A stretch of 64,000 nucleotides of DNA from Pseudoalteromonas sp. MM1 (lineage in GTDB: Bacteria > Pseudomonadota > Gammaproteobacteria > Enterobacterales > Alteromonadaceae), in the NCBI RefSeq assembly GCF_030296835.1, contig NZ_AP027923.1:248001-312000 (forward strand). The letters are read 5' to 3'. Below, piece by piece: positions 3,157-57,201 of this stretch; the stretch's first letter is position 1, and each line of letters opens with the position of its first letter. The position numbers and the translations under genes are program-made. The notes under the pieces were generated by a model. The model saw nothing but the letters and a program-made list of their open reading frames with translations. It had not been told where the DNA came from and made no database searches.

Positions 3157-4740
3157 TTATTCAACACGAATACCTTGGCTTAATAGGTACTCCACAGCTG
3201 CATTAGTATGGGGCTTAAACGCTTTCCAACGGCCAATGGCTTTGCTATTTAATGGTTGGCGTACTTGTACTTTACTGGCCGTAGATACCGGTGCGGTGTT
3301 TAAGTGAAAGTCTATACACTGCTCCTGCCATTCTAAATTACAAAAGCTAAGTAGCTCTTTTATTTGCTGCTCGGGCTGGGCGACTAGTTCTTCGTATTTT
3401 ACTAATTTTATATTGCTGTGCAGGGCGCTGAAGTGCTGCATAAGTTTGTAAAAACGGCTATAAAATTTGGCTGTGTCGAGCAAATCGAGCGAGTATGCGT
3501 AGTAGGGGTTATTTATTGTAAATAACTGGCGGTAGTTACCGATGCAGGTGTCCATTGGGTCGCGCAGCATACAAATAATTTTAGCGTTTGGTAGGGCTTT
3601 AGTTATTAAGTCGATATAAAAAAAGTTAAATGGGAGCTTATCTATAAAGTGTTTATGGCTGCCAGTAGTTACGCGAGTGGCATTTAAATAGGTTGTCCCA
3701 AGCTGATTAAAATCAAGCTCGTAGGCTTTACTGAGTGTTTGAGTGTCGAGTACATGGGGTGTTTGAGTTTGGCTTAACTTTTTAACGCTTAGGCCAAAGT
3801 CTTGTAATTCACCAGCTGATTGTACGTCGCTGTGGCTAGATAAAATGCGCTCAACCAATGTGGTGCCAGAGCGGGGCATACCTAATACAAAAATAGGCTC
3901 TGGCGTTGGGTTACCTTGTGTTAGCGCGTGTTTATGCTGCTCACTTAAATGTTTAATGTGTTCAAATAATGCGGCTGAGCTTTTATGATCAAACGGCTGC
4001 ATAGCCCGTTTAGCCGCCTTACCTTGCTCTAGGCTTTTAAACGCATCATCAAACTTGCCTATGTCTTGATACTCTTTTGCAAGTGCGTGGCCAATGTGTA
4101 ATTTTGCATCGGGATGAGTGATTTGCTCAGCTACGGTTTTTAAGCGCGATATATGATTAGATTGCGCAGTGGCTTTGGTTAAGTCACTTAATGCAAAATG
4201 GCTTTGGTGATGCAGCGGGTTTAGCGTAATGGCGCTTTCAAAGGCATTTTGGGCTTGTTTAAATTGGCCTACAAATTTAGCGCTCACACCTAAATTATAA
4301 TAAAACTGCGGTTGCGGTTTATTTGCATGTTTGGCCAGTTCAATAGCGCAGTTAAAGTAATTTAGTGCGTGTTCATGAAAGCCTGCTTGCGTAAGCGCAA
4401 CACCTAAGGTATCGGCATCAAGACTCTTTTTTATTTGCTTAATGGGTATGGCTAAAGCGGTATTTTTTGCTTTAGCAAGTTCACCTGTTAATGCGTAACA
4501 CTTTGCAAGTTGGGCGCTGTATTCAATGCTTTTACCAAAGCTAAGGGCTTTTTCAATTAACTTTATGGCTTTGTGTATTTGCCCAACACGTAAATTAACC
4601 ATGGCCAGTAAAAAATACCCATCGGCAAAGTCGTTTTTTTGAGTAACCAATTCAACTAAGGCTTTATGAGCAAGCTCAATATTGCCTTGGTTTAAATGTG
4701 TAATTGCACTTTGGTGGAGTTGTTTTAAATTTGGCTGCAT
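3157..4740 (-). CDS. TPR-repeat sulfotransferase family protein (pair 1)
   Basis: The 527-residue protein has an N-terminal half of tetratricopeptide repeats (about 1-270, typified by the YYNLGVSAKFVGQFKQA segment) joined to a PAPS-dependent sulfotransferase domain. The 5'-phosphosulfate loop GMPRSGTTL is at 287-295, and the 3'-phosphate region (Arg393-Asp394 and DTCIGNYRQ, 397-405) is intact, so it should transfer sulfate from PAPS. No signal peptide or membrane segment is seen, suggesting cytoplasmic action on a protein or glycan held by the TPRs. It lies downstream of the TonB-dependent receptor at 4833-7250, separated by a terminator, an order repeated at 53107-57201. The acceptor is unknown. 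Confidence 0.88.
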   Translation of the reverse strand: MQPNLKQLHQSAITHLNQGNIELAHKALVELVTQKNDFADGYFLLAMVNLRVGQIHKAIKLIEKALSFGKSIEYSAQLAKCYALTGELAKAKNTALAIPIKQIKKSLDADTLGVALTQAGFHEHALNYFNCAIELAKHANKPQPQFYYNLGVSAKFVGQFKQAQNAFESAITLNPLHHQSHFALSDLTKATAQSNHISRLKTVAEQITHPDAKLHIGHALAKEYQDIGKFDDAFKSLEQGKAAKRAMQPFDHKSSAALFEHIKHLSEQHKHALTQGNPTPEPIFVLGMPRSGTTLVERILSSHSDVQSAGELQDFGLSVKKLSQTQTPHVLDTQTLSKAYELDFNQLGTTYLNATRVTTGSHKHFIDKLPFNFFYIDLITKALPNAKIICMLRDPMDTCIGNYRQLFTINNPYYAYSLDLLDTAKFYSRFYKLMQHFSALHSNIKLVKYEELVAQPEQQIKELLSFCNLEWQEQCIDFHLNTAPVSTASKVQVRQPLNSKAIGRWKAFKPHTNAAVEYLLSQGIRVE

Positions 4741-4775
4741 TGTTTAATTTTTATTATTTAGTTACGCGTTAATAA

Positions 4776-4805
4776 AGAAAAAAGGCTCAAATAAATTTGA
4801 GCCTT
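4776..4805 (-). terminator. Rho-independent terminator after TonB-dependent receptor 1
   Basis: A 10-bp perfect stem, AAGGCTCAAA (4782-4791) and TTTGAGCCTT (4796-4805), has a four-base loop and, on the minus strand, is followed by a T-rich run. It ends the receptor transcript before the sulfotransferase gene, so the latter would need read-through or its own promoter. Confidence 0.85.
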
Positions 4806-4832
4806 AACACATTGTTTAAAAGTGACTATAAA

Positions 4833-7250
4833 TTATATTTCAAATTTGTAGTTAAATTTAACACCTACTGTGAGTGGCTGATTTACAAAGTGACCGTAGT
4901 TACGTTGTATGTCGGCACCGTTTGCAGTTGTTATGTCAGCATCTGAGCGACGAACCGATGTAAATGCATATTTGTTGAATAGGTTATCAACATATAAAGT
5001 AGTCGACCACTCATCGGCTGTTAGCTTAGCAGATATATTGCTTAAGCTGTAACCTGGCAGGGTTTCGCCATTGTCATGCAAACCTACTTTTGAAAGTACA
5101 TCGCTTTGTGCGGTTAAACCGTAGTTAATATCAAGGGTTTTATCGCTAAATACATCTGTTTGGTAGTTTACACCCATTGAGAACTGATGCTCTGGCGAGC
5201 CTGGTAAACGGTCGCCGTCTTCTGCGCCGTCTGTGCCATCAGCATTAAACAAAAATGGTGCGTCTGACGTTAGCTCTGCTTTTGTATAAGCATAGGTTGC
5301 GTACACGGTAAACGAGTCAGATAAAATGGCACGGGTAGATAGCTCAATCCCTTTTGCGTTTGCACTACCTGCGTTAGATAAGTACGGGAGTTGGCCTACA
5401 TCTGTTGCGCCTGCAATTTGCGCATCATCCCAATCTACATTAAATAAAGCAGCGTTAAAGTGTAATTGGCTTCTAAACCAGGTGCTTTTAAAGCCTAGCT
5501 CGTAGTTTGTAGTAGTATCTGCAACAAAAAGCCTTTCGTCAGCGTTACCACACCCTGTTTGCTGGTTTTCAGGGATAGGATCAGGGCAAACAGCTAGAAG
5601 GTTGGAACCGCCAATTCTAAAGCCTTCACTTACTGTTACATAACCCATTACTGAGTCAGTAAACTGGTATTTAGCATTAAATTTGAATAAGTTACCGTTA
5701 TCGCCTGCTTCGTCTTTTTCATAAGCAACTGTGATTGCATCAGGGTCTGCATCGCCATAAAGTGTATTTGCAAGCGGGAAGTCAAATGCTGCTTGCGCCT
5801 CTACATCGTATTCGTAAAAACGTGCGCCAATGGTAACATCTAATTTTTCGGTAACTTGGTAGCCAACTTCGCCGAATAGCGCAGACTCAGTGACTTTACT
5901 TTTTGTAAGCTCTAAGTATTCTAATGAGTCAGGCCTTAGCTGCGCGCCACCAAAGTTATCAACAGCGAATTGGTCAAACCCAGGCGTAAACTCTCTGCTT
6001 GATGCTTCGGTTTCTGTTTTGTTGTAAAAGCCACCCACAATCCAGTTAAAGTCGCTATCGCTTTGCGATACTAAACGCAGCTCTTGCGTGAAGGTGTCTT
6101 CTTCGTCAATTTCACGTGTGTATGATGAAAACGCAGGGAATTCTTCGTAGCCGTAATCAAGACGAATAAGTAAATCGGTTTGGTCACGTTGGCCGTCGGC
6201 ATCAAAGCTTGAAATACCTGTAGCCGATACTAGCTCTGCAAAACCTAGGTCTGCTTTTAGTTCAAGGCTTAGTAATTGATCTTCTTTTTCGCGCGGCTCT
6301 TCATAACGATAAGCCGACTCGTATTTACCTACAATATCGCTTAAACCGTTATCATCGTTTAGGCTGTTGTAATGAACAATTGAACGGCCTTCGCTGTCTT
6401 GGTTTTGATAAAAGTAGTTAAGTGTTCCTTCAAATGTTTCGCTTGGTTTGAAGCGAACTGAAATACGCCCTGTAGTGGTGGTTTCGCCGTTTGCGTCTTT
6501 TACATTTTTTATATTGTTGTTTACTTCCTCGGCGTTGCTCCAATCAGGGTCTGGGAGCGATACACCTGGCTCACGTACTGTGTAAGCATAATCAATAAAA
6601 CCTGGGTCTTCGTATACGTTTAAGCTTGCACGTACTGCTAATTTATCTTCAATAATTGGCAGGTTAACAATAAAGCCACCTTCGCCGCCTAAAGAGTCAC
6701 TTTCTTGAGTTTGAAATAGGTCACCAAATACTTCTACCGAGGTAAAATCAAGCTCTGGCTCTTTAAGCATGTAACGAATTGCGCCGCCTAAAGTACCAGC
6801 ACCATATAATGTACCTTGTGGCCCAATAAGTACTTCTACGCGTTCTATGTCTACCAAGCGCATATCAACTGACACTGGAATTTCGTTAACGTAAGTAGCT
6901 ACTGTGCCACCATCTGATGATGGGCCTGACGAATTAGTGTTTAAACCACGTACAATAATAGGCGAGCCTGAGCGACCACCTTGATCGGTAATTGTTAAAC
7001 CAGGCACCCAACGCGCTACATCGGCAAGTTCGCCAATGTTTTGATCTTTCATTACATCGGCATCAAGTGCGGTAATGTTTAGCGGTGCATTTTGCACCGA
7101 GCCGCTGCGCCTTGTTGCTGTTACTTCGATTACTTCGAGCGATTTTTTTTGAGCTATGACTTCTTCTTGCGCCACTGCTGAATTAGAAAATATAAATGCG
7201 CCAGAAACTGCGCTCGAAATAGCCAAGGTTAACAAGCTTGGTTTAAACAT
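4833..7250 (-). CDS. TonB-dependent outer membrane receptor (pair 1)
   Basis: The 805-residue precursor has a signal peptide ending SNSAVA/Q, a plug domain (about 45-165, including VTATRRSGS, GLTITDQGG and IVRGLNTN) and a long beta-barrel to the C-terminus. It imports a scarce substrate across the outer membrane using TonB energy; the substrate cannot be told from sequence. I chose the ATG at 7250 because a GGGGA element lies 9 bases before it; an upstream TTG (7271) would place extra residues ahead of the signal peptide. The last residues (YKFEI) do not end in the usual aromatic. A strong terminator follows, then the TPR-sulfotransferase. Confidence 0.92.
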   Translation of the reverse strand: MFKPSLLTLAISSAVSGAFIFSNSAVAQEEVIAQKKSLEVIEVTATRRSGSVQNAPLNITALDADVMKDQNIGELADVARWVPGLTITDQGGRSGSPIIVRGLNTNSSGPSSDGGTVATYVNEIPVSVDMRLVDIERVEVLIGPQGTLYGAGTLGGAIRYMLKEPELDFTSVEVFGDLFQTQESDSLGGEGGFIVNLPIIEDKLAVRASLNVYEDPGFIDYAYTVREPGVSLPDPDWSNAEEVNNNIKNVKDANGETTTTGRISVRFKPSETFEGTLNYFYQNQDSEGRSIVHYNSLNDDNGLSDIVGKYESAYRYEEPREKEDQLLSLELKADLGFAELVSATGISSFDADGQRDQTDLLIRLDYGYEEFPAFSSYTREIDEEDTFTQELRLVSQSDSDFNWIVGGFYNKTETEASSREFTPGFDQFAVDNFGGAQLRPDSLEYLELTKSKVTESALFGEVGYQVTEKLDVTIGARFYEYDVEAQAAFDFPLANTLYGDADPDAITVAYEKDEAGDNGNLFKFNAKYQFTDSVMGYVTVSEGFRIGGSNLLAVCPDPIPENQQTGCGNADERLFVADTTTNYELGFKSTWFRSQLHFNAALFNVDWDDAQIAGATDVGQLPYLSNAGSANAKGIELSTRAILSDSFTVYATYAYTKAELTSDAPFLFNADGTDGAEDGDRLPGSPEHQFSMGVNYQTDVFSDKTLDINYGLTAQSDVLSKVGLHDNGETLPGYSLSNISAKLTADEWSTTLYVDNLFNKYAFTSVRRSDADITTANGADIQRNYGHFVNQPLTVGVKFNYKFEI

Positions 7251-7656
7251 AAAAAGTGATCCCCAGTTCAAATGTTTTACATTAGTAAATTAAGTGAATA
7301 GTTTAGCAGGGAGTTAGGTGGCTGGGAATGATAAAATTGAATTTTAATTCACTTTTTTGGAATAAATATAGATAAAGTGACGGTAAAAAATTATATAAAT
7401 AGCTATTACATCCAATGTGTTGGCTAAATAAGGTACAAATAATGTGCTTTTTCCTCATTGAGCAAATGTAAATAGCCATTCATGTTTATTATTTTGTAGT
7501 AATTGTGTTGTTTGTTAATACAAAATTTGTAGGTCTATTTTTCAGTGGTTTATTTAATTTTTAGCCCTATAAATTTTTAGTTTGATCCCCATTGTTCTTA
7601 GTTATCGTAAGCTACTTCAATTCGCACATGTGTGCGCGCATTTACAGGATTAAATT
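7251..7656. other. divergent intergenic region
   Basis: This 400-base AT-rich stretch separates the divergent receptor gene and the ene-reductase gene and must hold both promoters. I see no small gene, clear operator palindrome or repeat in it. An AGGA ribosome binding site precedes the ATG at 7657. Confidence 0.5.
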
Positions 7657-51132: not shown

Positions 51133-52065
51133 TTACACAAGTTCTTCAAAAATGTGTTCGCGAGTGGCTTTATCAAAATAACTCCAGGCAATAAAACGAC
51201 TTACTTTTTGCCCTTGTGCCATATTTATAATTTTATATTCAGCAATAGGGAGGGTGTTTAGTTTTTTTTCTAAGGTAGTAAGGGTTTCTTTTTTTGAAAC
51301 AAGCGATGTAAACCATATAACTTGCTCTGCAAATTGCTCGCTTTCGGTGATCATATTACTGATAAACTGCGCTTCACCCCCCTCGCACCATAGCTCATTA
51401 TTTTGCCCGCTAAAATTAAGGGTGTTTTTAGGTGATTTTCCTAAGTTTTTCCATTTTCGCTCAGTGCCTTTGTTAGCCTCGTCCGCGCTTGCGTGAAACG
51501 GAGGGTTACATAGAGTTACGTGAAATAAATCTTTTTGATTAATAATACCCTTAAAAATAGAAGATGCATTTTTTTGATGCTTTAGAGTGATTTTCAAGCT
51601 ATTAAACTGGGTAATTTGCTTTGCTATTTTTATTGAGTTTGCATCTATATCACTCCCAGTAAAGTGCTAGTTGTATTCGTGAGTCCCTGTGAGTGGGTAA
51701 ACCAAATTAGCACCGGTACCAATATCAAGTGCTTTAATTTGACGCCCTATCGGTATTTTTTTTTGATTATCTACGCTTAATAAATCGGCCAAGTAATGTA
51801 TGTAATCTACTCGCCCTGGAATAGGGGGGCATAAGTTTTGATCCGGTATATCCCAAAACTCAATATTATAGTGCGCTTTTAACAGAGCTTGATTCAGTGT
51901 TTTAACGGCTTTGTTATTGCTAAAATCTATACTTTTATTGCCCGCGGGTGTTACCACTATAAAAGGTGCTAACGCATTATGTTTTTCGCATAATAAGTCT
52001 AAATTGTAACCATTTAAGTGCTGATTGCGAGGATGTAACTTGTTGCTGTTTGATTTTGATTTCAT
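51133..52065 (-). pseudogene. rlmF: 23S rRNA (adenine-1618-N6)-methyltransferase, interrupted by one amber codon
   Basis: The 311-codon frame matches RlmF from end to end: HPRNQHLNGY and PAGNKSIDFSN at the N-terminus, DIGTGANLVYPL (SAM loop), NPPFHAS (catalytic NPPF) and [13 protein letters not shown] near the C-terminus. A TAG at 51667-51669 lies directly after HEYN, where the E. coli protein has HEYGW, so it replaces a Trp (TGG to TAG). Both sides stay in one frame with no indel. The upstream part (132 codons) lacks the NPPF active site and should be inactive. Recent loss, read-through or sequencing error are all possible. Confidence 0.9.
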
Positions 52066-53106: not shown

Positions 53107-54534
53107 TTATTCAAATTGTTTTAACAGCGGAGTTTTATAGCGCTCCCAATGCGCAAGTGCCTGTGTATTAATTGGCTGCCTAATGGCTTGTTTGCTTAGT
53201 GTGCTAACCGCAGCCTTGCGCTTATAAAATGCTAAGCATTGCGGCTCATACTCACACCCTAAAAACGAAAATAAAGCACTTAGCTGCGCCTTAGGCTCAA
53301 CAACGAGTTGCTCATAATGAATATCGTATAGCGGTAATGAGGGCAGGCTGTGCCAATGATCCATTAATTTTGCATACAACGCATGGTAAAGTTTGAATTC
53401 TTTTAAATCACAAAAGTACGGCTCATTTTCGGCAAAGTAGTTACTGAACACCGAAAAAGCAGTGGCGTTAAAATTCCTACTTAAATTAATAAATTTAGCA
53501 TTAGGGAACAGCAAGTAAATTAAGCCCAAAGACTGATAGTTACTCGGTAGCTTATTAATAATGAAAGGGCGTACAGGCTGTGCTTTTTTTAATTCTTCAA
53601 TATAAATGTTGCGAGCTTTTGCTATTAAATCGCTACTAAGTCCGCTTAAACATTGCGGGTATGGAGTTTGTGTTTGCTGCTCTATAAACCCCACTACTTG
53701 ATTACCAATACTCGTGTTTTCACCTAGCGTAGTAAATTGTGAATGATTAGCCATCATTTGTTCAAGTAAGGTTGATCCGCTACGGGGCATACCCATTATA
53801 AACACGGGTGTAATAGTACCACTGAAAGTGTGATCGGCAGATGCAATTAGCTGTTGCGTATTGTGCCCTATAATTTGTTCATAAAAAGGCACTAAGTCAC
53901 TGGTTTTAAAGTGAGTAAGTTTTTTTTGAAGTTTGTTGGCAAGCACATAGTAGTTAAATGCTTGTGCTGTATCATCTAGTTTGTCATAGCTTTTACCTAA
54001 CGCGTAGTAACACACCATTTTTAAACGCACGTTATTAGTTTGCGTTAAAAAATGGTGTAGGTTGCTCACATAATTATGTTCTTTATTAAATCGGCCTAGC
54101 TGTACTAATTCAAATAAAATATAGGCAGTTACGGGATATAACCCCATGCTTAGTGCATGCGCAAATGTGGTGTGTGCTTTGTCTAACTCGCCGTAGCTTA
54201 AATAATGCTGAGCTAAATAATAATGAGGCTCAGGGTTATGGCTTGCGAGGCTTTTAGCATATTCGAGTACTTTAAGCGCATCATCAGGGGAGTGCACGCT
54301 ATTAAATGCATCGGCAAGCGCATGTAAAGGCTCCAGCATGTGAGGCAAACGTTCGCATGCTTTTTGTAATAAGTATACTGCTGCATCATAGCGCTCTAAC
54401 CTAAGTGCTATCCTGCCTAAACCAAATAAAGCTTCACCGCTTTGCGGGTTACTATTTAAAATTGCTTTAAAATGAAACTCGGCTTCTTTGAGTTTGTTTT
54501 CGTGTAGTAGTTGGTTGGCTTTTTTAATTAGCAT
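53107..54534 (-). CDS. TPR-repeat sulfotransferase family protein (pair 2)
   Basis: A 475-residue paralogue-type protein of the gene at 3157-4740: TPR repeats (about 1-205, including GEALFGLGRIALRLERYDAA), then a sulfotransferase domain with phosphosulfate loop GMPRSGSTLLE (248-258) and NLSRNFNATAFSVFSNYF as the 3'-phosphate region (Arg for PAPS). There is no signal peptide. The last part (VSTLSKQAIRQPINTQALAHW) closely parallels the pair-1 protein's VSTASKVQVRQPLNSKAIGRW. It lies just past the terminator of the TonB-dependent receptor at 54622. The acceptor is unknown. Confidence 0.88.
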   Translation of the reverse strand: MLIKKANQLLHENKLKEAEFHFKAILNSNPQSGEALFGLGRIALRLERYDAAVYLLQKACERLPHMLEPLHALADAFNSVHSPDDALKVLEYAKSLASHNPEPHYYLAQHYLSYGELDKAHTTFAHALSMGLYPVTAYILFELVQLGRFNKEHNYVSNLHHFLTQTNNVRLKMVCYYALGKSYDKLDDTAQAFNYYVLANKLQKKLTHFKTSDLVPFYEQIIGHNTQQLIASADHTFSGTITPVFIMGMPRSGSTLLEQMMANHSQFTTLGENTSIGNQVVGFIEQQTQTPYPQCLSGLSSDLIAKARNIYIEELKKAQPVRPFIINKLPSNYQSLGLIYLLFPNAKFINLSRNFNATAFSVFSNYFAENEPYFCDLKEFKLYHALYAKLMDHWHSLPSLPLYDIHYEQLVVEPKAQLSALFSFLGCEYEPQCLAFYKRKAAVSTLSKQAIRQPINTQALAHWERYKTPLLKQFE

Positions 54535-54570
54535 GACGCGGCATTATTGTTTTTTTAATTAATATAAAAT

Positions 54571-54602
54571 AAAAAAGGCGAAATGTCTTACCATTTCGCC
54601 TT
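54571..54602 (-). terminator. Rho-independent terminator after TonB-dependent receptor 2
   Basis: AAGGCGAAAT (54575-54584) and ATTTCGCCTT (54593-54602) form a perfect 10-bp stem and, on the minus strand, lead into a T-run. It mirrors the terminator placed after receptor 1. Confidence 0.85.
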
Positions 54603-54621
54603 GGTTTATCATGAAAAAATA

Positions 54622-57201
54622 TTAGAAAGTATAGGTTGCTTTCGCGTAGTAGAAGCCACCGTTAATACCGTATGGAGATGTTTCGTAGTATTGGCCACCC
54701 CAGTTATTGTTAGGGATACCCGTACGGTCTTCAAAATCAAGTTTTTCAGCGTCTTGGTCAAAGATGTTTTGTGCACCTACCGAGAAACTAATAGACTCAT
54801 TTAGGAAGTACGTTATTTCAGCGTCAATAGTTACTGCTGCGTCAGCTGTTTTTGCTGTTGCATCGTAATCTACGTGAACACCTTGGTATTCGCCGTAGTA
54901 GTTAGCACGAGTAAATAACGAAATTGATTCCCATTGTTGGGCCCAAGTAAGCGTTGCACGGTGATTTGGTAAATCTTCTTCTAAACGCTTAACTTTAAAT
55001 TCACCGGTAATGTCGCTGAACTTAGTTACTTCAGTTTCATTCCAGTTATAAGCAAGGCTAAATGTAGAGCTTCCGCCTAGCATGTCAGCTGTGTAGTTAG
55101 CAACTAAGTCAATACCTTGCGTTGTAGTATCAAAGTCATTAGTGAAAAAGCTTACTTGCGCATAGCTTTGTGCATTTGCTACACCAGCGGCTTCTAGCGT
55201 ATCTTTGTCTTCTTGGCTAAGTACGATTTTTTCTGATTGGCTGATACGATCTTCTACTTCAATATTGTAGTAATCAAGCGTTACAAATAAATCACCAATT
55301 GTGTATACCGCGCCTAATGTGTAGCTTTGAGATTCTTCAGGTGTTAGCTCTGTACCGCCTAGTTGCACAGCAATTGGGTTTGTAGGTGGTAATAATGCAG
55401 AATCTTGTAGCACACCGTCACTTAAGTTGGTTTGTACGTTACTAACGTTCGCTTGGCCAACAGTAGGGGCGCGGAAGCCTGTGCTTACAGAGCCACGAAT
55501 ATTTAAGTCTTCTGTAAGGTGGTACTGTGCCATTACTTTGTAGTTTGTTGTAGAACCAAAGCTGTCGTAATCTTCAAAACGTACCGCAAGGCCCATTAAG
55601 AACTCTTCGGTAAATGGTGCTTCTACATCAACATAGGCAGCGTAGTTACGACGTGTGTATTCGCCGGCATCAGAAGGTTTAAAACCAGGAAAACCGTTAG
55701 AGCCAATACCAAAACCTTGCTCAGTTAAAGGACCTGCAGTGAATGATGCTTCATCACCAGAAATAACAGTGAATGTTTCTTCGTGCCATTCTAAACCACC
55801 GGCAATATTTACATCGTACGCAAGGTCAAAATCAAAGCCTTTAGAAAGGTCAAAGTTAAAGTTTTTCTCTAGTTGCTCGTATTTACCCGGGCTAAAATCA
55901 CGCGGGCTGTCTGCACCTAATGAGGCATTAACTGTGTCGTAAATAAAGTAGCGAGATTCGTTTAAACCAACTGTACCGCTTAAATCGTAAAATGCATCTT
56001 TAAGGAAACCACCCGTGAACATACCCTTTGTACCAATGGTTAAAGAGGTGTCGGTGATATTGCCACCAAAGTTAGGTGTAAAACCACCAGGGATCACTTC
56101 GTTAAATGCAAAACAATCAGGGTTGTTAGCAACTCCGCTAATGTAGTCTGGGTTATCAAGTACGTTATCGTCAATCGCGATAGTAGGACAGTTAGCGCTC
56201 ATGTCCTCTGTTAAATCGGCAACAAGCAGAGTTTCACCGCCATCGTTTGAATAAACACCTGGGCGGGTATGCGGGTTACGGTAGTAAAAGCCACCACGTA
56301 CATCACGCTCAGAGTAGTTACCAAACATATAAAATTCAGAGTCGTTTGTTAGTTCTAACCCAACGTTACCAAAAATTGAAATGTCGTCATCAACTTCAGG
56401 GGCACCCCACACTTGTGCAAGAGATGAAACGTCTGGTACACCTGCAGCGGCAAGTCCTGCGGCATCAGGGCGTTGCACTGATCGGCTTGTTGCGTCCGCT
56501 GTTTTGTATTGAAAACTTAAGTTAGCAAAGCCGTTATCGGTAAATGGTAAGCCTACGTTACCCGATATCTGTGTTGTATCACCATCGCCTTCGTAATATT
56601 GACCTTGACGAACTTCAAGCTTACCGCCTTCAGAGGCATCTTTAAGTTGGAAGTTCATTACACCTGCGATTGCATCAGAACCATATTGTGCTGCTGCGCC
56701 ATCGCGTAGTACTTCTACTTGCTTAAGTGCAATGCTAGGAATAACTGAAATATCAGCGCCTTGTGCACCATCATTAATACCACCACCTAAAAATGCAATG
56801 ACAGACGCGCGGTGACGACGTTTACCGTTTAAAAGAACTAATGTGCTATCTGAAGGTAGGCCACGTAAGTTAGCTGGGCGTACAAGTGATGCGGCATCAC
56901 TGATTGGGTTTTGATGAACATTAAAAGAAGGAACAGAGCCTTTTAAAAGTTCAAGCATATCGGTGTTGCCAGATTTTTCTAATTCTTCACCGCCAATAAT
57001 ATCAATAGGAACTGGTGAATCACCAATAGAGCGGGGTGCTGAACGAGTACCCACTACGGCTATTTTTTCTACATTTTTATTAACTTTGGTTTCGCTTTCC
57101 TCTGCTGCAATAACAGAGCCTGACATAAACAAACCAGCAGTGGTTGTTGTAGCTAAGGCAAATTTAACTGCCTGATTTAGCGCATTACTTTTAAGTTTCA
57201 T
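54622..57201 (-). CDS. TonB-dependent outer membrane receptor (pair 2)
   Basis: An 859-residue precursor with a signal peptide (cleavage after VIA, about residue 32), a plug domain (about 45-185; VVGTRSAPRSIGDSPVPID, NLRGLPSDSTLVLLNGKRR, EVLRDGAAAQYGSDAIAGV) and a barrel ending in the expected aromatic, TYTF. It imports an unknown substrate with TonB. GGGGA lies eight bases before the ATG, inside ACTGGGGA, a leader shared with receptor 1. Several Cys in the barrel loops (NCPTIA, PDCFAF) may form surface disulfides. A terminator and then the TPR-sulfotransferase follow. Confidence 0.93.
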   Translation of the reverse strand: MKLKSNALNQAVKFALATTTTAGLFMSGSVIAAEESETKVNKNVEKIAVVGTRSAPRSIGDSPVPIDIIGGEELEKSGNTDMLELLKGSVPSFNVHQNPISDAASLVRPANLRGLPSDSTLVLLNGKRRHRASVIAFLGGGINDGAQGADISVIPSIALKQVEVLRDGAAAQYGSDAIAGVMNFQLKDASEGGKLEVRQGQYYEGDGDTTQISGNVGLPFTDNGFANLSFQYKTADATSRSVQRPDAAGLAAAGVPDVSSLAQVWGAPEVDDDISIFGNVGLELTNDSEFYMFGNYSERDVRGGFYYRNPHTRPGVYSNDGGETLLVADLTEDMSANCPTIAIDDNVLDNPDYISGVANNPDCFAFNEVIPGGFTPNFGGNITDTSLTIGTKGMFTGGFLKDAFYDLSGTVGLNESRYFIYDTVNASLGADSPRDFSPGKYEQLEKNFNFDLSKGFDFDLAYDVNIAGGLEWHEETFTVISGDEASFTAGPLTEQGFGIGSNGFPGFKPSDAGEYTRRNYAAYVDVEAPFTEEFLMGLAVRFEDYDSFGSTTNYKVMAQYHLTEDLNIRGSVSTGFRAPTVGQANVSNVQTNLSDGVLQDSALLPPTNPIAVQLGGTELTPEESQSYTLGAVYTIGDLFVTLDYYNIEVEDRISQSEKIVLSQEDKDTLEAAGVANAQSYAQVSFFTNDFDTTTQGIDLVANYTADMLGGSSTFSLAYNWNETEVTKFSDITGEFKVKRLEEDLPNHRATLTWAQQWESISLFTRANYYGEYQGVHVDYDATAKTADAAVTIDAEITYFLNESISFSVGAQNIFDQDAEKLDFEDRTGIPNNNWGGQYYETSPYGINGGFYYAKATYTF

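Follow-up and report, generated by a model that had tools for sequence, protein, structure and literature searches.

Recurrent pairing of TonB-dependent receptor and TPR-sulfotransferase genes in Pseudoalteromonas, and its possible link to receptor sulfation

What does a TPR-sulfotransferase act on when its gene lies beside that of a TonB-dependent receptor? The window of Pseudoalteromonas sp. MM1 analyzed here, a stretch of 64,000 nucleotides, contains two such neighborhoods. A preliminary description of this DNA named three candidate substrates, namely the receptor, its cargo or a surface polymer.

Two units of different families

The first receptor (R1; 4833..7250, minus strand) carries Plug and beta-barrel domains (PF07715, E 2.8e-17; PF00593, E 2.4e-33; both over the Pfam cut-off), is predicted to fold as a barrel (pLDDT 84), and has 805 aa when read from an ATG. 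Its open reading frame can also start at a TTG (4833-7271, minus strand, 812 aa), but the ATG at 7250 is the likelier start because a stretch that by sight resembles a signal peptide comes after it. A gap of 92 bases, holding a terminator-like hairpin (4782..4805, minus strand) with a 10-pair stem, 4 G-C pairs and a T tail, separates R1 from the TPR-sulfotransferase ST1 (3157..4740, minus strand, 527 aa), which matches TPR families and Sulfotransfer_3 (PF13469; E 1.7e-49, 169.5 bits with a cut-off of 27). The second unit comprises receptor R2 (54622..57201, minus strand, 859 aa; PF07715, E 1.6e-18; PF00593, E 7.3e-35; both over cut-off), a gap of 87 bases with a hairpin (54575..54602, minus strand) of 11 pairs, 5 of them G-C, and a T tail, and ST2 (53107..54534, minus strand, 475 aa), which likewise matches TPR families and Sulfotransfer_3 (E 2.7e-38, 132.8 bits, cut-off 27). 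The open reading frames, domains and hairpins bear out what the preliminary description had reported, that is, the order of receptor, terminator and TPR-sulfotransferase on one strand and its recurrence about 50 kb away (53107-57201). Its term 'copy 1', however, is misleading if taken to mean duplication, because the receptors of the two units belong to different families and their TPR-sulfotransferases to distant clades (26% identity between ST1 and ST2); a single duplicated module is ruled out. Among the NCBIfam matches inspected (25 of 26 for R1 and 15 for R2), none reaches its curated cut-off, which places neither receptor in a characterised siderophore, heme or B12 family.

The terminator in receptor-sulfotransferase gaps is beyond chance: terminator-like hairpins occur in 41 of 51 distinct receptor-sulfotransferase gaps, as against 22/157 other same-strand gaps and 13/1020 shuffled gaps, with the count restricted to distinct 40-300 base gaps flanked by genes of at least 150 aa. 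Iron regulation through Fur was rejected for both receptors, as a scan upstream of R1 and R2 with what we take to be the Fur box consensus found no Fur-like box (best match 12/19 for both; random stretches average 11.4).

Conservation of the receptor-sulfotransferase pairing

In searches that started from the receptor, every R1 locus examined was paired with a sulfotransferase, 32/32 in the genus and 25/25 in the order; since scoring in each genome was confined to the best candidates (25, 23, 4, up to 12, and 3, by search), additional R1-like loci may have escaped these searches. Some loci were viewed with a 1.5 kb flank, and at L313 the sulfotransferase lies about 2 kb off. The pairing is beyond chance, and the placement of the R1 partner relative to its receptor, which the preliminary description had singled out for checking, proved non-random. 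As judged from sequence comparison, receptor and sulfotransferase genes stay together across genera and families, with each receptor family accompanied by its own sulfotransferase clade. The named loci behind these comparisons are the best 80 of at least 530 relatives, and they overlap with the genus set (for example, L203 is L095, L205 is L099 and L209 is L093); the receptor loci L308, L309 and L310 are identical with L154, L169 and L159. TonB-dependent receptors are plentiful, with 54 plug matches, which might favor chance or vertical hitchhiking as the origin of the pairing, but the complete receptor-first counts and the several separate sulfotransferase clades, each with a separate receptor family, make this explanation extremely improbable. 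The linkage is a property of particular families: R2 relatives lacking a sulfotransferase exist, and TPR-sulfotransferases in general are not receptor-linked, as only 5 of 70 have a receptor immediately before them and a further 13 have one within 3 kb, in 60 regions that do not form a random sample of the class because they were picked by hand from the best matches listed.

Receptor and enzyme could be co-regulated with neither acting on the other, for example in a shared nutrient response in which the sulfotransferase modifies a surface polymer. The compact and usually co-oriented unit would fit such co-regulation, as would the terminator, which suggests that the sulfotransferase may be separately expressed. 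However, the linkage persists through inversion and changes of gene order, and by sight neither the window nor the relatives read showed polysaccharide genes adjoining the units. We regard co-regulation alone as very unlikely, and the surface polymer of the preliminary description finds no support in these neighborhoods.

Alternatively, the sulfotransferase might have as its substrate a different exported protein, or a small peptide missing from the annotation, with the receptor and this substrate cooperating at the cell surface. In support of this idea, other TPR-sulfotransferases have flagellin, FlgL-like, porin, FadL-type or adhesin-like genes next to them or close by. Yet in the neighborhoods read, no gene other than the receptor was seen consistently beside the sulfotransferase across genera, and a rule that TPR-sulfotransferases adjoin exported proteins was rejected, since a crude signal-peptide heuristic found no clear general excess among their neighbors (15/134) relative to distant genes (27/316). 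A small peptide gene could be missed because open reading frames were listed from 80 aa upward. On balance, we consider this explanation unlikely.

The sulfotransferase and its possible substrate

The predicted model of ST1 (pLDDT 94.4) begins its TPR helices at residue 5; Pfam, model and fold comparison all place an N-terminal TPR superhelix (residues 5-268; 3937..4728, minus strand) in fusion with a catalytic domain (Pfam residues 282-473; 3322..3897, minus strand). No signal peptide was seen by eye, the model has TPR where metazoan TPSTs have an N-terminal membrane anchor, and ST1 looks soluble. By fold only, its catalytic domain resembles human TPST1 and TPST2 (PDB 5wrj, 5wri, 3ap1) and its TPR superhelix resembles that of O-GlcNAc transferase; the next sulfotransferase folds are two domains of small-molecule pathways, and the Foldseek and VIA lists leave room for other folds. 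The likeness to tyrosylprotein sulfotransferases being one of predicted fold, we do not class these enzymes as TPSTs. Arg290 of the 5'-PSB loop and the catalytic Glu311 are present in all tabulated receptor-linked sulfotransferases, Arg393 is kept, and the genome encodes an APS kinase. The 3'-PB serine is present in ST2 and in 46/47 sulfotransferases linked to or near R2, R3 and R4 receptors, ST2 among them, whereas ST1 has Gly401 and the 97 enzymes linked to or near R1 receptors have 63 Gly, 12 Ala and 22 Ser.

These features bear on whether the enzyme would act in the cytoplasm on the receptor's cargo, either an imported small molecule or peptide or a sulfated product of the cell that is re-imported. 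Pairs of a receptor and a cytoplasmic enzyme serving one nutrient are common, and Sulfotransfer_3-like enzymes include small-molecule sulfotransferases, such as the two domains that come next in the fold comparison. On the other hand, the TPR superhelix and TPST-like domain of the model suggest a protein substrate, the same architecture accompanies receptor families with presumably different ligands, and by sight the pair is not accompanied across genera by any gene for biosynthesis, inner-membrane transport or catabolism. Cargo sulfation is thus doubtful, if slightly less so than modification of another exported protein.

We favor, with moderate confidence, the reading that each unit consists of a receptor and a dedicated protein sulfotransferase that sulfates it before export. 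Among the three substrates of the preliminary description, the receptor is best supported, because a TPST-like domain sits on an OGT-like TPR superhelix, R1 has a conserved acidic-tyrosine loop, each receptor family has its own sulfotransferase clade, and no other gene was consistently seen with the unit. The enzyme would act in the cytoplasm, the site of PAPS synthesis, where its superhelix would bind the unfolded receptor preprotein ahead of Sec export and its catalytic domain would sulfate acidic tyrosines of a later extracellular loop (in R1, Tyr375 and Tyr373). The intergenic terminator would limit read-through, making the enzyme scarcer than the receptor, and the sulfated loop would then modulate ligand binding or protect the receptor. 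We know of no case in which a large beta-barrel protein is modified in the cytoplasm ahead of Sec export, and the Gly or Ala at the 3'-phosphate-binding serine position in ST1 and most R1 partners argues against receptor sulfation.

Known systems share parts of this arrangement. O-GlcNAc transferase and SPINDLY likewise join a superhelical TPR to a catalytic domain and act on proteins, but they are eukaryotic and of broad specificity, and their catalytic domain is unrelated to that of the sulfotransferase. Receptor genes can also neighbor those of cytoplasmic hydroxylases or tryptophan halogenases, as in PiuA/PiuC, which again pairs a TonB-dependent receptor with a modifying enzyme whose substrate is in question, with different chemistry. 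To our knowledge, TPSTs lack TPRs, and RaxST of Xanthomonas has neither a TPR domain nor a receptor neighbor. ST1, as predicted, differs from TPST1 and TPST2 in looking soluble, in its TPR fusion and in lacking the 3'-PB serine. In excerpts of PMC9372746, TPSTs are described as type II membrane proteins of the Golgi, and the bacterial RaxST as having no membrane anchor. As described in excerpts of PMC9372746 and PMC4216712, RaxST shares with the proposed ST1 role its dependence on PAPS, its cytoplasmic site, its action before export and the adjacency of its gene to those of the exported product. Its substrate, in contrast to the receptor proposed here, is the small peptide RaxX of a type I system. 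In the TPR-glycosyltransferase FlmG of Caulobacter, the N-terminal TPR selects the client for cytoplasmic modification by the C-terminal domain (PMC7591256, excerpts), a sugar being added to flagellin of the flagellar export route rather than, as proposed here, sulfate to a Sec-exported receptor.

Candidate acceptor tyrosines and wider implications

The candidate sulfation site of R1 is the acidic-tyrosine motif GQRDQTDLLIRLDYGYEEFPAF (6129..6194, minus strand; residues 360-381 from the TTG), which the predicted model places in a loop between strands 345-363 and 384-402. Among 53 nonredundant receptors of the R1 family, Tyr375 (6147-6149, minus strand) is conserved in 53/53, Tyr373 (6153-6155, minus strand) in 47/53 and Glu376 in 47/53. 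Conservation of the loop could reflect ligand binding alone, and because motif-bearing R1 receptors form a single clade, motif and sulfotransferase are not independent observations. Against receptor sulfation, 12 Pseudoalteromonas relatives have lost Tyr373 and Glu376 and kept the sulfotransferase, and L103 and L311 have a sulfotransferase nearby and no motif. The sulfotransferase domain paired with these 12 relatives is 35-43% identical to ST1, compared with 46-59% in motif-bearing pairs at receptor identities of 58-64%; we give this co-variation little weight because the 12 form one clade and the Lacimicrobium pairs L237 and L240 combine a changed motif with an ordinary sulfotransferase (53-55%). 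A Y[GS]YE search of 19 receptor loci of the same genome (15 distinct genes after removal of repeats and of the short open reading frame L300; several partial) found no match.

For R2, sequence comparison makes Tyr462 and Tyr779 (54865..54867, minus strand; in HVDYDAT), selected from 16 tyrosines in acidic context, weak candidates. Tyr462 is kept in 25/27 sulfotransferase-linked relatives and in 0/8 of those lacking the enzyme; position 779 is Tyr in 23/27 (2 Phe, 2 Glu) and Trp or Asp in 8/8. However, both follow the tree of the main linked R2 clade, with Glu or Asp in the separate linked pair L069 and L106, and no R2 tyrosine is kept in all 27 linked relatives and lost in all 8 others. That these tyrosines do not fully track the sulfotransferase, together with the R2 relatives that lack it, argues against receptor sulfation. 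The R3 and R4 families have acidic tyrosines in some loops, which we left out as evidence because an R4-like loop also occurs at L317 with no sulfotransferase in its 1.5 kb flanks.

The excerpts of the literature cited link tyrosine sulfation in bacteria to one system of a small exported peptide (RaxX) and describe bacterial TPST genes as sparsely distributed. We speculate, more tentatively than for the two units themselves, that dedicated cytoplasmic TPR-sulfotransferases of Gram-negative bacteria, each encoded next to its receptor, add sulfate before export to tyrosine in an extracellular loop of the cell's own TonB-dependent receptors, that such an arrangement has evolved in at least four receptor families, and that related TPR-sulfotransferases may likewise serve flagellins, porins and adhesins. 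If so, protein sulfation would extend to major surface proteins, with the enzyme traveling with receptors across many marine genera; it would form a client-specific code at the bacterial surface, one that serves ligand choice or the evasion of receptor-using phages and bacteriocins, and would give a set of so far unassigned TPR-sulfotransferases a function. DYGYEEF in the R1 loop offers a defined candidate site. A Pfam scan of TPR-sulfotransferase neighbors found three flagellins and three Porin_4 proteins, neither family being in the 25 listed per distant set (130/134 neighbors and 130/147 drawn distant genes were scanned, and single matches are possibly hidden in the distant lists), a difference that is at most suggestive.

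Two receptor–sulfotransferase units and their recurrence

The 4.49 Mb genome of Pseudoalteromonas sp. MM1, in which the window lies on contig C2, contains 54 Plug matches and two Sulfotransfer_3 matches, and a receptor directly precedes both of its sulfotransferase (ST) genes. In the first unit, the TonB-dependent receptor R1 (4833-7250, minus strand) is followed 92 bases downstream by the TPR-sulfotransferase (TPR-ST) ST1 (3157-4740, minus strand); in the second, a gap of 87 bases separates the receptor R2 (54622-57201, minus strand) from ST2 (53107-54534, minus strand), and a terminator-like hairpin lies inside both gaps. The preliminary description treated the units as copies, a term that should be dropped: ST1 and ST2 are 26% identical and fall in distant clades of the ST tree, and R1 and R2 are members of different receptor families, so that these are two separate pairings. 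The window also holds two adjacent minus-strand ORFs (51133-52065) that by sight look like one rRNA methyltransferase-like gene, possibly split.

The order of receptor, terminator and TPR-ST itself was confirmed, and recurs much more strongly than had been stated. We searched with R1 first, so that loci were not picked by their ST, and scored the best few candidates per genome. On this basis, an R1 relative (57-100% identity) occurs at a single locus in each of 32 of 40 genomes of Pseudoalteromonas, the close relatives by sequence search, and a same-strand ST lies just downstream at all 32. Scored likewise across the order, 25 R1 loci were found in 23 of 247 genomes at E < 1e-80, and the contig carries a same-strand Sulfotransfer_3 match in all 25 cases. 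Of these matches, 21 lie downstream with a spacing that fits a direct neighbour, two downstream within 3 kb, one at 7.3 kb and one directly upstream. Among the best candidates scored in 80 genomes that gave no Sulfotransfer_3 match, an R1-like match at E < 1e-40 occurred in one, at 30% identity. The linkage of R2 is looser, with an ST downstream at 33 of 41 loci (at least 57% identity, 40 genomes) and eight loci without one; in three Pseudoalteromonas genomes (G003, G017 and G034; loci L284, L285 and L286) the R2 locus is a tandem pair of R2-type receptors from which the ST is absent. Two R1 genes contain in-frame stops (G003:C167:13468-15846 and G024:C34:37815-40241), each with an ST match alongside.

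Linkage counted from the sulfotransferase

For the converse count, 60 relatives were searched and regions were fetched around TPR-length matches. In 36 Pseudoalteromonas genomes (TPR-STs of 440-760 aa, five short or long STs being left out), a same-strand receptor lies directly upstream of 63 of 70 TPR-STs, a figure that takes in a few receptors that are disrupted or run off the end of a contig. Around the other seven, a receptor is found within 3 kb but arranged differently; five of these seven STs belong to a different ST lineage, placed between genes that by sight are polB-like and dinG-like. At loci of this lineage (L040, L041, L045, L064 and L079), a pair of an ST and a receptor of a further family, R3, lies ~8 kb away. 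On 80 contigs with the best 80 of at least 530 ST1 relatives, from Paraglaciecola, Rheinheimera, Idiomarina, Alteromonas, Glaciecola, Colwellia, Haliea and other genera, 78 STs could be assessed: 68 have a receptor immediately before them, seven are near one and three have none within 3 kb. In the order's other families, two of 13 TPR-STs are direct neighbours (three near a receptor, eight without), as are five of 70 in a class-wide sample (13 near, 52 without). It is thus particular clades, and not TPR-STs overall, that are receptor enzymes. A same-strand gene of ~150-190 aa often lies 3' of the ST in Alteromonas and Glaciecola (L229, L233, L235, L245 and others); at L235 the two occur with no receptor alongside.

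In a tree of 236 STs, the partners of R2 form one clade of 30, those of R1 lie inside one large clade, further clades hold the partners of R3 and of another family, R4, and unlinked STs lie between the linked clades. Regarding recurrence and REARRANGEMENT in the R1 family, the genes are divergent at L154, L159, L169 and L276 and convergent at L271, the ST comes first at L262 and in G524, and one gene intervenes at L103. That the linkage outlives these changes of order and orientation is better explained by a functional tie than by a frozen operon.

A terminator-like hairpin was found in 41 of 51 distinct receptor–ST gaps in the genus, compared with 22 of 157 other same-strand gaps, whose median length is equal (91 bases), and 13 of 1020 shuffled gaps; gaps between a receptor and another gene (two of three) are too few to judge. 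Most naturally, this suggests that the cell makes more receptor than ST, as would fit a catalyst that acts on the receptor. It is possible that the ST is driven by a weak promoter of its own.

Candidate acceptor tyrosines

R1 residues are numbered here from the TTG start (ATG numbering is lower by 7). Among 53 R1-family receptors, which remained of 98 once those more than 85% identical were removed, Tyr375 is present in all 53, and Tyr373 and Glu376 in 47 each; the three residues belong to the motif GQRDQTDLLxx[LF][DEN]Y[GS]YExFPxF. The structural model (pLDDT 84) assigns this motif to a long loop that joins strands 345-363 and 384-402, where local confidence is lower, ~71-73. Long loops of such barrels face outward, and this one is the best conserved of nine taken from the model. 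In 36 of the 53 receptors the residue before Tyr373 is Asp or Glu. Substrates of metazoan tyrosylprotein sulfotransferases (TPSTs) are described as mostly carrying Asp at the position preceding the tyrosine, with acidic residues on either side, and as commonly having sulfotyrosines in clusters of two or three over a span of six residues (PMC9372746).

The motif was not found in 15 distinct receptor paralogues of the same genome. Among 12 further receptors, R1 excluded, it occurs in three R1-type receptors with an ST, whose loci were already in the R1 set, and is absent from ST-linked L311 and L318 and from seven without an ST in the 1.5 kb flank, one of which (L313) has an ST ~2 kb away. As the motif-bearing receptors all form one clade, its co-occurrence with the ST counts as one correlated event, not many.

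R2 offers weaker candidates than R1. At Tyr779 (HVDYDAT), 23 of 27 ST-linked relatives keep the tyrosine (two have Phe, two Glu), and all eight ST-less ones have Trp or Asp; at Tyr462 the tyrosine is kept in 25 of the 27 and in none of the eight. These two were selected out of 16 tyrosines in acidic context and both fail in a separate ST-linked pair (L069/L106).

Mechanism and precedents

We propose that the ST is a cytoplasmic protein sulfotransferase dedicated to its receptor. Each half of this mechanism is plausible from precedent: RaxST of Xanthomonas, a tyrosine sulfotransferase, acts in the cytoplasm ahead of export (PMC9372746, PMC4216712), and in FlmG of Caulobacter, a TPR-glycosyltransferase, the N-terminal TPR domain binds flagellin for cytoplasmic modification by the C-terminal enzyme domain (PMC7591256). 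Prior art for the idea is an unpublished observation by two colleagues, cited in PMC9372746, that bacterial TPST genes often adjoin genes for extracytoplasmic proteins; receptors are not named in that passage. A search of titles and abstracts, with preprints and most subscription papers outside its reach, found no work on TonB-dependent receptors paired with sulfotransferases. The earlier suggestion that the enzyme may sulfate the receptor, its cargo or a surface polymer is borne out in part: that receptor and ST are functionally linked is near certain. Whether the ST sulfates the receptor itself seems to us an even question, and modification of a tyrosine in the R1 loop around Tyr373 and Tyr375 is a tentative proposal.

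A crude signal-peptide test showed no clear general excess of exported-protein genes beside TPR-STs. Other TPR-STs at eight loci (L164, L166, L163, L190, L152, L153, L201 and L182) lie beside or near genes that encode flagellin, a protein resembling FlgL, porins, FadL-type proteins (at L153 several genes away), an inverse autotransporter, and an Ig-like repeat protein accompanied by an outer-membrane efflux protein. In the class-wide sample (A5 neighbour set), two of 66 TPR-ST neighbours are OGT-like genes of glycosyltransferase family 41.
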